Origin: Neoroseomonas terrae
GTDB taxonomy: Bacteria; Pseudomonadota; Alphaproteobacteria; Acetobacterales; Acetobacteraceae
NCBI RefSeq assembly: GCF_018129025.1
Contig: NZ_JAAEDI010000018.1
Span: 1 to 64,000 of the forward strand
Direction: 5' to 3'
DNA: 64,000 bases
Part shown: one piece after another, positions 26,945 to 55,595 of the stretch
Layout of the letters: each line of letters starts with the position of its first letter
Numbering within the stretch: position 1 is the stretch's first letter
Translations under genes and position numbers: made by a program
The notes under the pieces: generated by a model
The model's database searches: none
What the model saw: the letters and a program-made list of their open reading frames with translations, nothing else
Told to the model about the DNA's origin: nothing

Positions 26945-26948
<4 letters not shown>
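26688..26948 (-). CDS. Small exported protein coupled to leuA
   Basis: This 86-residue protein has a signal peptide ('MNRRSLFGAPLALVSAGAVA') and a beta-rich mature part with 'GIARMEADGTLILDLNPRPD' and 'VYPPDHRDYAMILRHLGG'. Its ATG overlaps the leuA stop. The twin Arg could suggest Tat export but the motif is short. No family recognised; co-transcription with leuA need not mean shared function. Confidence 0.65.
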
Positions 26949-28525
<1,577 letters not shown>

Positions 28526-28570
28526 GTCAGGCGTTTCCTGTTTGGCGATGAGGGTGATGCGCGCGGTTGG

Positions 28571-28611
28571 GCTCAGCTTCCCCTGAGCGATGTCCGGCCG
28601 AGTTCAGCCGG
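28571..28611 (-). promoter_or_regulatory. Two hairpins between the leucine leader and leuA
   Basis: On the leftward transcript a CCGGC/GCCGG hairpin (28611-28594) is followed by a GCTCAG/CTGAGC hairpin (28588-28571), just after the leader stop codon. They are candidate attenuator or pause structures, but no T tract follows either one, so a simple intrinsic terminator is not evident. Confidence 0.5.
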
Positions 28612-28614
28612 GCG

Positions 28615-28725
28615 TCACGCCCAGGGGCGGGTAAGTCGAAGGAGAAGGAGCCCAAGAGGCGCGCGCAGCACGGCCGGGGCGGGAAGCCCCAGGGTCAGGC
28701 CGGCCGGGATGGCGCGCAGGATCAT
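28615..28725 (-). CDS. leuL: Leucine-rich leader peptide (candidate leu attenuator)
   Basis: This 36-residue peptide contains 11 leucines and ends 'LGLLLLRLTRPWA' before TGA 28615. Codons in the Leu run are CTT or CTC, uncommon in this genome where CTG dominates, as expected for a ribosome-stalling control region. It lies about 90 bp before leuA. The ATG at 28725 is about 10 nt downstream of a likely -10 box and has no Shine-Dalgarno, so the mRNA may be leaderless. Confidence 0.7.
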   Translation of the reverse strand: MILRAIPAGLTLGLPAPAVLRAPLGLLLLRLTRPWA

Positions 28726-28734
28726 CGCGGGCGG

Positions 28735-28764
28735 ACAATAGCCACGGCCGGGGACCCGCCGCAA
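28735..28764 (-). promoter_or_regulatory. Predicted leuL-leuA promoter
   Basis: On the minus strand TTGCGG (28764-28759) and TATTGT (28740-28735) are separated by 18 bp. The expected start site falls at or just before the A of the leader-peptide ATG. Confidence 0.6.
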
Positions 28765-28802
28765 GGGTCGCGGGAGCAGGCCACCGCCCACTCCCGCGAC
28801 CG

Positions 28803-30362
28803 TCAGGCCTTGTCGACCTGCCAGAACAGGCAGAAGCCGCGGGGGATCCCCGTGATGTTCCGGCGGTAGGCCGTCGGGTCCAGCGACTGCCCGAGCGGGA
28901 CATAGGGCACGTCCAGCATCGCCTGGCGCTGGATCTGCTCGCACAGCGCCTTCTGCGCCGCCTCGTTCGGCGCATCGAACCACTGATCGCGCAGGGCCTC
29001 GATGCGCGGGCTGTCGGGCCAGCCGGCGAAGGCCTGCGCGCCATTGCCGCGAAGCGTCAGATGCGCCGCCGGCGTCAGTTGGTCGAGCCCGGCGAAGGTG
29101 GTGAAGAAGGCGCTCCAGCCGCCCTGCGTCGGTGGCTCCCGCTTCACCCGCCGCTGGTTCATCGCGGCATTGTCCATCGGCATCGGCTCCACGCGGAAGC
29201 CGATGCGCTTCATCAGGTCGACGCCGACCTCCGCCACGCCGCCGATCGCCGAGGCGGAGCTTTGCAGCATCACCACCGTCTCGCCGCCGTAATTGGCCGC
29301 CGCCAGGGCTCGGCGCGCCTCCTCGATGCTCATCGGCGGCTCGATGCCGACCTCGGTCGCCATCGGCCCGGGCGCGAAAAAGCCGATGCGGTCGCGCCAG
29401 AGGTCGCGCTCCTCCCCCATCATCGTCTGCATGAAGTCGGACTGCACCACGGAGCGCAGCACGATGCGACGGATCTCCGGCCGATCGAAGGGTGGATGCA
29501 GATGGTTGAGCCGCATGATGGCGATCTGGCCGCCCGGATCGGTGATCTCGATGCGCACGTCGCGGCTGCGCCGCATCAGCGGCAGCAGGTCGCCCGGCGG
29601 CCGCTCGAACCAGTCGACCTCACCGGCGACGATCGCGCTGGCCGCCGTGCCGGGATCCGGCATGGTGACCCATTCCACGCGGTCCAGCTTCACGACCTTC
29701 GGGCCGGCGGTGAAGCTGACCGGGCCGTCGGCGCGCGGCACGTAGCCGGCAAACTTGCGGTAGATGTTGCGCGCGCCGGGCACCCGCTCGGCGGTGTCGA
29801 AGACGAAGGGACCGCTGCCGATCACCTCCCGCACCGGCTGGAGCGGCGAGGTCATCGCGTGCCGCTCCGGCATGATGCAGGGCATGTTCGATGCCGCCTT
29901 GCCCAGCGCTTCCGGCAGCATCGGGAAGGGCCGCTTCAGGCGGAAGACGATGGTGTTGTCCGTCGGCGCGCTGATCTCATCGGTGATCGCCAGCAGCGTC
30001 TGGCCGAGCGGGTCGCGCGCGCCCCAGCGGCGGATGGAGGCGACGCAGTCGCGCCCCCGCACGGGCTCGCCATCGTGGAATCGCAGGCCCTCGCGCAGGG
30101 TCAGCGTCCAGCGGCGGCCGTCATCCTCCACGACATGACCGGCCACCATCTGCGGATGCGGGCGGTAGTTCTCGTCGAGGCCGTACAGCGTGTCATAGAC
30201 AAGGTAGCCGTGGTTCCGCGTGACGTAGGTGGAGGTCCAGACAGGGTCCGTGATGTCGAGGTCGTTGCGCGGCACGAAGCGCAGCACCTTGGCCTGCTGC
30301 GCCCGTACCTGGGAGGCCGAGAGTGCGGCACCCGCGGCGAGGAGGGTCCGACGCCCGATCAT
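28803..30362 (-). CDS. Family-5 (DppA/OppA-like) extracytoplasmic solute-binding protein
   Basis: This 519-residue protein has a Tat/Sec-type signal ('MIGRRTLLAAGAALSASQVR') and the SBP_bac_5 fold, with 'VAGHVVEDDGRRWTLTLREG' then 'LRFHDGEPVRGRDCVASIRR', plus a C-terminal 'YVPLGQSLDPTAYRRNITG'. Such proteins deliver peptides or other substrates to ABC permeases, but no permease genes are nearby. It is coupled by ATGA to the upstream amidase, so the ligand may be an amide or the amidase product. Confidence 0.88.
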   Translation of the reverse strand: MIGRRTLLAAGAALSASQVRAQQAKVLRFVPRNDLDITDPVWTSTYVTRNHGYLVYDTLYGLDENYRPHPQMVAGHVVEDDGRRWTLTLREGLRFHDGEPVRGRDCVASIRRWGARDPLGQTLLAITDEISAPTDNTIVFRLKRPFPMLPEALGKAASNMPCIMPERHAMTSPLQPVREVIGSGPFVFDTAERVPGARNIYRKFAGYVPRADGPVSFTAGPKVVKLDRVEWVTMPDPGTAASAIVAGEVDWFERPPGDLLPLMRRSRDVRIEITDPGGQIAIMRLNHLHPPFDRPEIRRIVLRSVVQSDFMQTMMGEERDLWRDRIGFFAPGPMATEVGIEPPMSIEEARRALAAANYGGETVVMLQSSASAIGGVAEVGVDLMKRIGFRVEPMPMDNAAMNQRRVKREPPTQGGWSAFFTTFAGLDQLTPAAHLTLRGNGAQAFAGWPDSPRIEALRDQWFDAPNEAAQKALCEQIQRQAMLDVPYVPLGQSLDPTAYRRNITGIPRGFCLFWQVDKA

Positions 30363-38049: not shown

Positions 38050-39849
38050 TCAGACCAGGACCTTGCCTTCGTCCGTGACGCCGGCAACGCCGCCCTCCTG
38101 ATCCGGACCCAGGATCATCTCGTTATGGGCGGCGCCGGAGGGGATCATCGGAAAGCAGTTCTCATCCTTGGCCACCGCGATATCCGCGATGACGGGTCCG
38201 GGGTGGGCGATCATCTCGCGGATGCCGGCATCGAGGTCGGCCGGGTCGGTCACGCGGATGCCTTTTGCATGGAAGCTCTCCGCGAGCTTCACGAAGTCGG
38301 GCAGCGCGGCGGAGTAGCTCTCGGAATACCGCCCGCCATGCAGCAATTCCTGCCACTGGCGCACCATGCCCATGTATTCGTTGTTCAGGATGAACACCTT
38401 CACCGGCAGGCGATACTGCGCCAGCGTGCCCATCTCCTGGATGTTCATCAGGATCGAGGCCTCGCCAGCGATGTCGATGCAGAGCGCATCGGGATGCGCG
38501 ATCTGCACGCCCATCGCTGCCGGCAGGCCGTAGCCCATCGTGCCGAGGCCGCCCGACGTCATCCAGCGGTTCGGCTTCTGGAAGCCGAAATACTGCGCGG
38601 CCCACATCTGGTGCTGGCCGACCTCGGTGCTGATGAAGGTCTCGCGGCCAAGCTCGCGGGTAATCTCGTACAGCCGCTTCACCGCGTGCTGCGGCTTGAT
38701 GATCTTGCCTTCCTGGCGATAGCGCAGGCAGTCGATGCCGCGCCATTCGTCGATCCGGCGCCACCAGGTGGTCAGCGCCGCCTTGTCCTGCGCCGCGCCG
38801 TCTTCCTTCCACGCCGCGATCAGCGCAGCCAACACGCGGCCGGCATCGCCCACGATCGGCACCTCGACCGGCACGTTCTTGTTGATCGAGGACGGGTCGA
38901 TATCCGCGTGGATCTTCTTCGAATTCGGCGAGAAGGCGTTCAGCCGCCCCGTCACACGATCATCGAAGCGTGCGCCGATGTTCAGCATGACGTCGCAATC
39001 ATGCATGGCGAGGTTCGCCTCGTAGGTCCCGTGCATCCCCAGCATGCCAACGAACTGCTTGTCGTCGGCCGGGAAGGCGCCAAGCCCCATCAGCGTGTTC
39101 GTGCAGGGAAAGCCCGTCATGTGCACGAAATCGGCGAGCAGCCGCGATGCCTCGGGCCCGGCGTTGATCACGCCGCCGCCGGCATAGACGATTGGCTTCT
39201 TCGCATGCTTCAGCAGCGCGATCGCCTTGCGGATCTGCTCGGCATCCGGCTCGGTCTGCGGGCGGTAGGAACGGTGCTCGGTCTTCGGCGCCTCAGTATA
39301 GGGCGCCTTGTTGATCAGGATGTCCTTCGGCAGGTCGATCACCACCGGGCCGGGACGGCCGGACTTCGCGACGTAGAAGGCCTCATGCACCACGCGGGCG
39401 AGGTCGGCCGACTTCTTGACCAGGTAGTTATGCTTGGTCGCCGGGCGCGTGATGCCGGTGGTGTCGGCTTCCTGGAACGCGTCGTTGCCGATCAGATGCG
39501 TCGGCACCTGACCGGTCAGGCAGACGATCGGGATGCTGTCCAGCAGCGCATCCACCAGCCCCGTCACGGCGTTCGTGGCACCGGGGCCGGACGTCACCAG
39601 CACGCAGCCCACCTTGCCGGTCGAGCGCGCATAGCCCTCGGCCGCATGCACCGCGGCCTGCTCGTGCCGCACCAGGATGTGGCGGATCGCGTTCTGGTTG
39701 AAGATGGCGTCGTAGATCGGCAGGACCGCGCCGCCCGGATAGCCGAAGATGACCTCGACGCCGTTGTCCTTCAGCGCGCGCAGGACGACCTCGGCGCCTG
39801 ACATCGTCAGGGCGGCTTCGGTGCTGGCGGGCTTCGTGGCGGCGGACAT
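38050..39849 (-). CDS. ilvB: Acetolactate synthase large (catalytic) subunit
   Basis: This 599-residue thiamine-diphosphate enzyme condenses pyruvate (or pyruvate with 2-ketobutyrate). It has the N-terminal Pyr domain with 'GYPGGAVLPIYDAI' and the catalytic Glu in 'RHEQAAVHAAEGYARSTGKV', a FAD-binding middle domain, and the PP domain with 'GDASILMNIQEMGT'-like 'GEASILMNIQEMGTLAQYRL'. Here the usual GD of the ThDP motif is G-E, a point to check. ATG 39849 follows GAGGAAAG. First gene of ilvBNC. Confidence 0.95.
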   Translation of the reverse strand: MSAATKPASTEAALTMSGAEVVLRALKDNGVEVIFGYPGGAVLPIYDAIFNQNAIRHILVRHEQAAVHAAEGYARSTGKVGCVLVTSGPGATNAVTGLVDALLDSIPIVCLTGQVPTHLIGNDAFQEADTTGITRPATKHNYLVKKSADLARVVHEAFYVAKSGRPGPVVIDLPKDILINKAPYTEAPKTEHRSYRPQTEPDAEQIRKAIALLKHAKKPIVYAGGGVINAGPEASRLLADFVHMTGFPCTNTLMGLGAFPADDKQFVGMLGMHGTYEANLAMHDCDVMLNIGARFDDRVTGRLNAFSPNSKKIHADIDPSSINKNVPVEVPIVGDAGRVLAALIAAWKEDGAAQDKAALTTWWRRIDEWRGIDCLRYRQEGKIIKPQHAVKRLYEITRELGRETFISTEVGQHQMWAAQYFGFQKPNRWMTSGGLGTMGYGLPAAMGVQIAHPDALCIDIAGEASILMNIQEMGTLAQYRLPVKVFILNNEYMGMVRQWQELLHGGRYSESYSAALPDFVKLAESFHAKGIRVTDPADLDAGIREMIAHPGPVIADIAVAKDENCFPMIPSGAAHNEMILGPDQEGGVAGVTDEGKVLV

Positions 39850-55227: not shown

Positions 55228-55304
55228 TCAGTCAACGCGAAATCAGCGGCGCGTCGCTTGGCCTTTCCCCCTCGAAATCCGGGCTCTGCCGCGCTACATG
55301 GGCT

Positions 55305-55595
55305 CCGTCACCTCGGTGACTATGGCGATAAACGGCGTATGGAATAAGCGTTGCGGACCCGGGGGCGGTACCCGGCGCCTCCACCATCTCACCCGACCGG
55401 TATCGTGGTCGGCGGACGGGGGCGAAACAGGCTCGACGCGCGCGGTAAAGATCCGTCTTTTGCCCGGCATTGTACCGCCGTTATCGGGCTAAATCATAAG
55501 TGCCAACGATAACAGCCGCGAGGCTGTGGCGCTCGCTGCCTAAATAGGTAAGCGCGGTTCGGGGGGCACCGGGCAACAGAAGCCCCCCACTTCCC
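55305..55595 (+). ncRNA. ssrA: Transfer-messenger RNA, permuted two-piece alphaproteobacterial form
   Basis: The acceptor piece comes first and ends with T-arm CCGGG-GGCGGTA-CCCGG, 3' strand CGCCTCC and encoded ACCA (to 55386). The coding piece starts at 55418 with GGGGGCG, which pairs with CGCCTCC to give a 7-bp acceptor stem including the G3-U70 pair required by alanyl-tRNA synthetase. The resume frame at 55502 encodes the tag ANDNSREAVALAA then TAA. A 7-bp GC hairpin (55561-55588) closes the gene. Ends are approximate. The RNA rescues stalled ribosomes and tags their products for ClpXP. Confidence 0.95.

Follow-up and report, generated by a model that had tools for sequence, protein, structure and literature searches.

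How could an alphaproteobacterium adjust the expression of leuA to its leucine supply through a leader that carries neither a Shine–Dalgarno sequence (SD) nor an evident terminator? This question is raised by a short leucine-rich open reading frame (ORF) located before leuA in Neoroseomonas terrae, within the window analysed here (a stretch of 64,000 nucleotides, with a G+C content of about 69%). The main finding is a conserved RNA helix formed by two leader segments, 2 and 3 (helix 2:3), of which an earlier reading of the DNA, made from its letters alone (the sequence-only reading), made no mention.

The leader locus and its recurrence

The locus comprises the following features:

26945–28525, minus strand: leuA, 2-isopropylmalate synthase (NCBIfam NF002087 and TIGR00973, both above cut-off)
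28615–28725, minus strand: leader ORF of 36 codons, 11 of them Leu, with a predicted 5' UTR of 0–3 nt and without SD (sequence and comparison)
28633–28656, minus strand: segment 1, the Leu control run CTT GGG CTC CTT CTC CTT CGA CTT (comparison and codon counts)
28735–28740, minus strand: -10-like hexamer TATTGT, 9 nt 5' of the leader ATG (sequence and relatives)
28759–28764, minus strand: -35-like hexamer TTGCGG (sequence, and T/G enrichment at -38 to -34 from the leader ATGs in relatives)
28766–28801, minus strand: 16-bp hairpin directly past the stop of the upstream gene (-36 kcal/mol, z -7.2), without T tract

The leader encodes the peptide MILRAIPAGLTLGLPAPAVLRAPLGLLLLRLTRPWA (28725–28615, minus strand, stop codon included) and its stop is separated by 89 nt from the leuA ATG (28525), which is preceded by the SD AGGA; the leader ATG has none. 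As the frame stays open 5' of this ATG, the start of the leader is inferred from conservation. The spacer between TTGCGG and TATTGT is 18 nt long, and the upstream gene ends at 28803. A strict sigma-70 scan of positions 28450–28850 retrieved no promoter, both hexamers being weak by the E. coli consensus and below threshold, so the promoter of the window rests on comparison with relatives. With transcription starting 6–9 nt past a -10 hexamer and the ATG at 9 nt, the 5' UTR would be 0–3 nt long.

The sequence-only reading had proposed a 36-codon frame with 11 leucines and a CTT/CTC-enriched run before leuA, starting without SD close to a -10 box. This description is confirmed: the frame lies on the minus strand and recurs in relatives, the gap to the -10 hexamer is 9 nt, the lack of SD is family-wide, and the Leu run, whose loss in close relatives had been named as a refutation, is kept.

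The leader peptide has no match in Pfam or NCBIfam, and Rfam 15 has none at the window leader at gathering threshold. When nine sources (the window's own locus, L189, and eight others) were compared with Rfam 15 at E<=1, the element remained unmatched; two weak microRNA matches at this level both lie in L079, away from the element. Neither the ilvB-type acetolactate synthase gene of the window (38113–39804, minus strand; inspected up to 40500) nor trpE in this genome showed a similar leader upstream, and a search in distant mode found no plasmid copy of the element. Elsewhere in the window, a tmRNA gene (55268–55591, plus strand) matches RF01849 and RF04321, the Rfam models of alphaproteobacterial and permuted tmRNA.

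The leuA loci fetched at first numbered 30 (29 relatives and the window's own), and all carry the element, 28 by pattern and two (L007 and L025) by alignment. The peptide end LGLLLLRLxRPWA, followed by the stop, and the promoter spacing recur at these related loci. In the window clade (16 aligned sequences including the window), GCGATG is invariant and the leader has 35, 36 or 37 codons; in the 13 sequences of a sister clade, the ORF reads MREVSRR...LLGLRLIRPWA and stop. Third codon positions account for 48% of the substitutions in the former, a modest sign of translation, and for only 36% in the latter. The candidate explanation that the ORF arose by chance is rejected by its conservation across leuA loci.

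Recurrence was also found where the motif played no part in the choice of loci. Out of 20 leuA upstream regions picked without regard to it (long leuA matches among those lacking a locus; partial ones such as G033, G038 and G040 were omitted), 17 contain the element, the exceptions being G055, G068 and G075, in the last of which the script did not locate the leuA start. The last CTT is present in all 17, but the recognition pattern itself required it. The pattern CTTCGACTTNNNCGCCCYTRRGCG retrieved at least 119 loci from species-representative genomes; among the 80 matches listed, most belong to Acetobacteraceae or Rhodospirillales and to Sphingomonadales, and Caulobacter, a Rhizobium MAG and one MAG labelled Clostridia also appear. 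Carriers of the element include type strains of Sphingomonas. A leuA motif lies downstream in 143 of 147 pattern loci; the other four are that of the Clostridia MAG (L059) and three cut by the end of the stretch (L114, L161 and L165).

A covariance model built on the 69-sequence alignment described below (E<=0.01) matched 101 of 385 alphaproteobacterial genomes, at one site each and under about 60 family labels, and 100 of the 101 matches are located directly before leuA (79 by script, 18 by a wider motif and three from the listing of the motif-blind regions). In a sample of the phylum, whose class split is not given, 48 of 299 genomes matched, all of them Alphaproteobacteria. In one genome (G563), the other strand of the same site gives an additional weak match. 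A partial match (L285, G402:C14:107270-107345; E 0.003) precedes an ilvA-like gene and may be due to chance or belong to a relative of the element. Taken with the conservation of the leader, this distribution indicates, at the level of sequence, a conserved element that is widespread in Alphaproteobacteria and of which chance is an unlikely source.

Two kinds of leuA, of the DTTLRDGEQ and DLRDGNQ types, are found downstream of the element; the same leader and helix precede a DLRDGNQ-type gene in L188, L190, L079 and others. As one leader stands before different kinds of leuA, it seems either to have remained in place or to have moved when one leuA was replaced by another.

Family-wide counts were made on 144 nonredundant loci of 221, after the leuA start had been required to lie 20–130 nt past segment 3 and near duplicates had been removed. 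Another set, used to measure the stretch between segment 3 and leuA, omits L059, L114, L132, L161, L165 and L168–L187 (some genomes of the latter return as covariance-model matches), as well as the model matches L285, L261, L279, L281 and L267 and the duplicate L189. Leucine codons cluster towards the end of the leader, their frequency falling with distance upstream of the stem. CTT makes up 113 of the 336 Leu codons within the six codons before CTTCGACTT, compared with 77 of 1709 in the 5' portion of leuA. The last Leu codon (in the window CTT, 28635–28633, 8 nt before the 10-bp helix) is kept in 144/144 loci and a Leu two codons earlier in 140/144, with Arg (120) or Leu (24) between them; Pro precedes the stem's stop position in 143/144, and that position holds a stop in 115 and UGG in 27, including the window. 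These core-position counts overstate the invariance, because the search pattern and the covariance model favour the same positions. The locus thus has one hallmark of an attenuator, a short ORF rich in the amino acid made downstream (11 of 36 codons are Leu, before leuA).

The start of the leader was assessed on 83 of the 221 leaders, namely the nonredundant ones among 103 in which only one ATG could serve as the start. In 31 of them, the best -10 hexamer is located 6–10 nt before the ATG, versus 11.7 expected from shuffles; in the other 52, it is found elsewhere. An SD-like motif precedes only 12 of these leaders (14%; background 15.8%) versus 51 of the 83 leuA starts. In the window clade, -10-like hexamers are mostly found 9–10 nt 5' of the ATG (12 nt in L008, read by eye); in the sister clade, the ORF starts 6–7 nt past TANNNT hexamers such as TATTCT, TAAACT and TAATCT (12 of 13 by script, L026 by eye). 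The spacing script chose a more upstream ATG at 8 of 29 loci, which were read by eye where alignments were shown. These data support a leaderless or nearly leaderless start as a predicted trait of the family.

RNA structures of the leader

The pairings around the end of the leader involve the following features:

28618–28627, minus strand: segment 2, CCCCTGGGCG, which spans the final codons ahead of the stop and forms the 5' arm of the conserved 10-bp helix
28580–28589, minus strand: segment 3, CGCTCAGGGG, 3' arm of the same helix
28594–28611, minus strand: apical hairpin within helix 2:3, of variable sequence across clades
28567–28574, minus strand: GAGCCCAA, long-range partner of TTGGGCTC of the leader (28655–28648), forming the outer helix 1:4
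28571–28588, minus strand: alternative hairpin 3:4 (GCTCAG/CTGAGC), clade-specific, excluding 2:3 and not followed by a U-tract
28528–28540, minus strand: small hairpin CAGG/CCTG holding the leuA SD (folds and clade comparisons)

In 145 of 147 loci, segments 2 and 3 can form at least eight standard pairs out of 10, the exceptions being L059 and the cut locus L114. In a covariation alignment of 69 of the 70 representatives drawn from 159 loci (L094 was omitted), 96.1% of the cells of the helix are paired, a percentage that leans towards 2:3 because segment 3 was located by pairing. Double-compensatory cells amount to 88, whereas shuffles average 34 and sliding the segments yields no more than 13. 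Two of the five covariation measures are not clearly above shuffles: five pairs show double changes versus 3.2 (32 of 500 shuffles are as high), and 11 further pair types occur versus 10.8. The leader thus also presents a conserved RNA structure at its control codons, with compensatory changes, as expected of an attenuator.

In the window, the fold of the whole leader gives the 2:3 pairs probabilities of about 0.6–0.7, and RNAalifold retains the helix in the window clade. In the minimum free energy fold of the window, the Leu run instead pairs with part of segment 3, which extends the outer helix and replaces 2:3. The outer helix TTGGGCTC/GAGCCCAA has pair probabilities of 0.82–1.0 in the window and a partial signal across the family; the RNAalifold consensus of the window clade lacks it and chooses other long-range pairs. 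For the sister clade, RNAalifold chooses a pairing between GGGCTT in the Leu run and AAGCC past segment 3.

RNAalifold also pairs the first leader codons with a stretch shortly before leuA in both clades, at positions of little or no variation: GCGATGA with TCATCGC in the window clade (alignment columns 16–22 with 197–203, window 28728–28722 with 28551–28545) and TGCGTG with CACGCA in the sister clade (columns 33–38 with 184–189), that is, another sequence at a like place.

In 5 of the 13 sister-clade sequences, two pairs of the small hairpin around the leuA SD have undergone compensatory changes; GAGG/CCTC, found in the other eight, is AGGG/CCCT in L012, L016, L019, L022 and L026, and the SD stays paired. 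The window clade has no double change in this hairpin, and one or two of its 16 sequences are broken at three pairs.

Possible mechanisms and outputs

The leader ORF, its Leu codons, its lack of SD, the promoter position and helix 2:3 are supported by comparison of sequences; from the whole we infer the response to leucine, the polarity of the switch and a transcriptional or a translational output. The element is probably an attenuator through which ribosomes regulate leuA in response to leucine; its upstream ORF (uORF) would be leaderless or nearly so, and a ribosome stalled at the last Leu codons would melt an OFF hairpin. The following model can be drawn. Transcription would start at the leader ATG or within about 3 nt of it, and the leader would be read from this (nearly) leaderless 5' end. 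The 5' arm of helix 2:3 lies over the final codons of the leader or over its stop codon. When leucine is ample, the ribosome would finish the peptide and leave, the 2:3 hairpin would form, accompanied by the outer helix 1:4 in the window and in some lineages, and leuA expression would be low. When leucine is short, a ribosome held on the last Leu codons would mask segment 1 together with part of segment 2 and keep the OFF hairpin from forming, and leuA would be expressed; in the window clade, the small 3:4 hairpin could then hold segment 3.

An occlusion model of the ribosome, whose footprint we set ourselves, gives helix 2:3 a probability of 0.14 for a stall at the last Leu codon, 0.91 for a stall two codons earlier and 0 for a ribosome at the stop. 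The geometry of occlusion, together with a TTTTT that follows the 2:3 stem in one relative (L182, genome G056; within ATTTTTATAG), favours 2:3 as the OFF helix, and in L182 this stem and its T-rich sequence plausibly form an intrinsic terminator. Within the model, the most likely design has one OFF hairpin only, which opens when a ribosome stalls on the last Leu codons; were most stalls to occur on upstream Leu codons, starved cells would form 2:3 and the switch would have the opposite polarity. Against this reading count the weak promoter hexamers, the bias of the search pattern and model towards the core Leu positions, the location of segment 3 by its pairing, the two covariation measures close to shuffles, the displacement of 2:3 by the Leu run in the minimum free energy fold of the window and the small change in accessibility of the leuA ribosome-binding site (RBS).

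How the OFF state would lower leuA expression depends on signals past segment 3. A scan of positions 28450–28850 for terminator-like hairpins with a T tract found none, and an intrinsic terminator in the window was rejected on this basis. The sequence-only reading, which had noted that the hairpins downstream of the leader lack T tracts, is borne out, as no consistent U-tract was found in the family. This absence is weak evidence, since the strong hairpin past the upstream gene also lacks a T tract; that hairpin (28766–28801) hints that terminators in this genome may do without U-tracts. TTTT occurs, at no fixed place, in 26 of the 144 loci (6.5 expected when shuffling preserves nothing but base composition), four loci have at least five T in the 9 nt past segment 3 (2.1 expected), and T is mildly enriched just past it (0.253 versus 0.161). 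The terminator with a U-tract that precedes the structural gene in a classical attenuator was thus not found as a consistent feature, and L182 is an exception.

This lack of a consistent U-tract would suit Rho-dependent termination, in which Rho would load on the C-rich stretch before leuA once the early stop has released the ribosome, and would then terminate transcription; a stalled ribosome or the structure that it imposes would prevent this. The stretch between segment 3 and leuA is C-rich and poorer in G (C.336, G.223), with C exceeding G in 118 of 141 loci; the bias is modest, however, the stretch is short (about 50 nt; medians 51 and 45 nt), and a sequence does not reveal whether Rho binds to it. 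We regard this output as unlikely, while giving it appreciable weight. The sequence-only reading had offered a Rho-dependent or a pausing-based output as examples, and either may apply.

Translational attenuation similar to that proposed for the actinobacterial LEU element has a small but real chance of being the right account. The Leu run would pair with the ribosome-binding region of leuA, which a stalled ribosome would free. Among the 137 loci kept of 206 for the duplex test, the duplex between the Leu segment and the region upstream of leuA beats shuffles (p<=0.05) in 39, versus 6.9 expected, and falls short of this level in the other 98. A contiguous complement score of at least 8 is reached in 12 of 144 loci (L257, L238 and L263 are examples) versus 3.0 expected. 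As far as sequences can tell, the complementarity of the Leu run to the wider region upstream of leuA is real in a subset of loci. That the run hides the leuA SD itself was not upheld, as the SD is included in the duplex in 44 of 91 cases versus 45.3 expected from composition. The SD does lie in a small hairpin in the window clade and the sister clade, and modelled mean accessibility of the leuA RBS rises from 0.425 in the free leader to 0.492 and 0.469 in two stalls (0.452 with the ribosome at the stop); the window's own RBS, however, is unmoved by modelled stalling (0.43–0.45 in every state).

In classical four-segment attenuation, 2:3 would be an antiterminator that arises from stalling at the upstream Leu codons, with 3:4 as the terminator, a scheme that appears rather improbable here. 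The 0.91 obtained for a stall two codons before the last Leu codon agrees with it, and hairpin 3:4 exists in the window, where it excludes 2:3, and is enriched in the 34 CCCCTG-type loci (16 versus 7.8 expected). It is scarcer than expected, however, in the other 110 loci (12 versus 21.9), where a universal 3:4 hairpin was rejected on this ground, and not enriched over all 144 (28 versus 29.7); no terminator was found in the window, and a modelled stall on the last Leu codon blocks 2:3.

It is very improbable that the helix is a protein-binding site or the peptide an arrest peptide, with an incidental Leu run: the high conservation of CTTCGACTTA and of the helix and the nearly constant Pro before the stem's stop position would fit, but the conserved Pro and stop codons lie within the stem and track its base pairs, Leu takes the place of the Arg between the last Leu codons in a sixth of the loci (24/144), and the upstream Leu codons are enriched in CTT/CTC.

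Extended to the class, the preferred reading becomes more tentative and is open to serious doubt: alphaproteobacteria would share a one-hairpin attenuator. The ribosome of a leaderless uORF would, by stalling at the last Leu codon, directly melt the OFF hairpin, in whose stem the uORF stop usually lies; the design would need no separate antiterminator and mostly no intrinsic terminator, and would serve both kinds of leuA.

Relation to known leaders

The leader of the leu operon of Gammaproteobacteria resembles the alphaproteobacterial leader in its Leu control codons, its ribosome-mediated sensing and the leuA gene downstream, and differs from it in being led by an SD and in possessing a classical terminator. 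Mycobacterial attenuators with leaderless polycysteine uORFs were reportedly described by Canestrari in 2020. Such uORFs act as attenuators according to a summary given in PMC9031893; they share with the present leader a leaderless short ORF with control codons and differ from it by their Cys codons and by their phylum.

The view of the sequence-only reading that a leaderless attenuator peptide is in itself unusual finds no support, because leaders of S. meliloti (trpL), S. lividans (leuL1, ilvL and trpL1) and C. diphtheriae (ilvB) are reported to be leaderless. In the reports on S. meliloti trpL (rnTrpL), the transcript starts at the leader ATG and the leader is translated, as indicated by ribosome profiling (PMC7298713, PMC10117765). 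Like the present element, it is an alphaproteobacterial attenuator with a leaderless leader ORF (predicted from sequence here); unlike it, trpL has Trp codons, precedes trpE(G) and has a terminator that yields a small RNA, whereas the leuA leader has no evident terminator. S. lividans leuL1 is reported as leaderless and without a typical terminator (PMC8079986); the ilvB leader of C. diphtheriae is reported as leaderless (PMC5784534). In Caulobacter, leaderless messages are common, 375 having been reported (PMC4117421).

The actinobacterial LEU element has a leader with a Leu run for which a base stem between the run and the leuA SD was proposed; the report leaves the mechanism open, and leader mutants of S. 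coelicolor did not fit classical attenuation (PMC1262725). The actinobacterial leuA leaders and the present one have in common an ORF with a Leu run before leuA and, in the case of S. lividans, the lack of a typical terminator. In its description, however, the LEU element is a pseudoknot built on a base stem, whereas the constant part is here a simple 10-bp helix over the leader end; its stem involves the leuA SD, whereas here SD pairing is not above composition and pairing further upstream is found in a subset. In C. jejuni, leuL is a Leu leader with rare Leu codons before leuABCD (PMC3847290); its RNA reportedly ends shortly past the stop codon, and this species belongs to another bacterial group.

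No description of an alphaproteobacterial leuA leader was found in the literature searched, which largely left subscription journals outside its scope; for an alphaproteobacterial ilvB leader, PMC1273637 cites Vitreschak et al. 2004. As leaderless attenuation is known already, what appears to be new is a conserved alphaproteobacterial leucine attenuator with the leader end inside a covarying stem and a predicted output that departs from the textbook. The element may work like the actinobacterial or S. meliloti leaders, yet it matches no catalogued Rfam or protein family.

If this reading is true, many alphaproteobacteria would run leucine synthesis through an RNA element that has no match in Rfam 15 and that would differ from the textbook attenuator by a leader without SD, a stop usually located within the stem and no consistent terminator. 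Its many natural versions would provide a large series on how ribosomes that start on leaderless messages keep up with RNA polymerase or with the folding of the RNA, and leader peptides before leuA could be annotated consistently.
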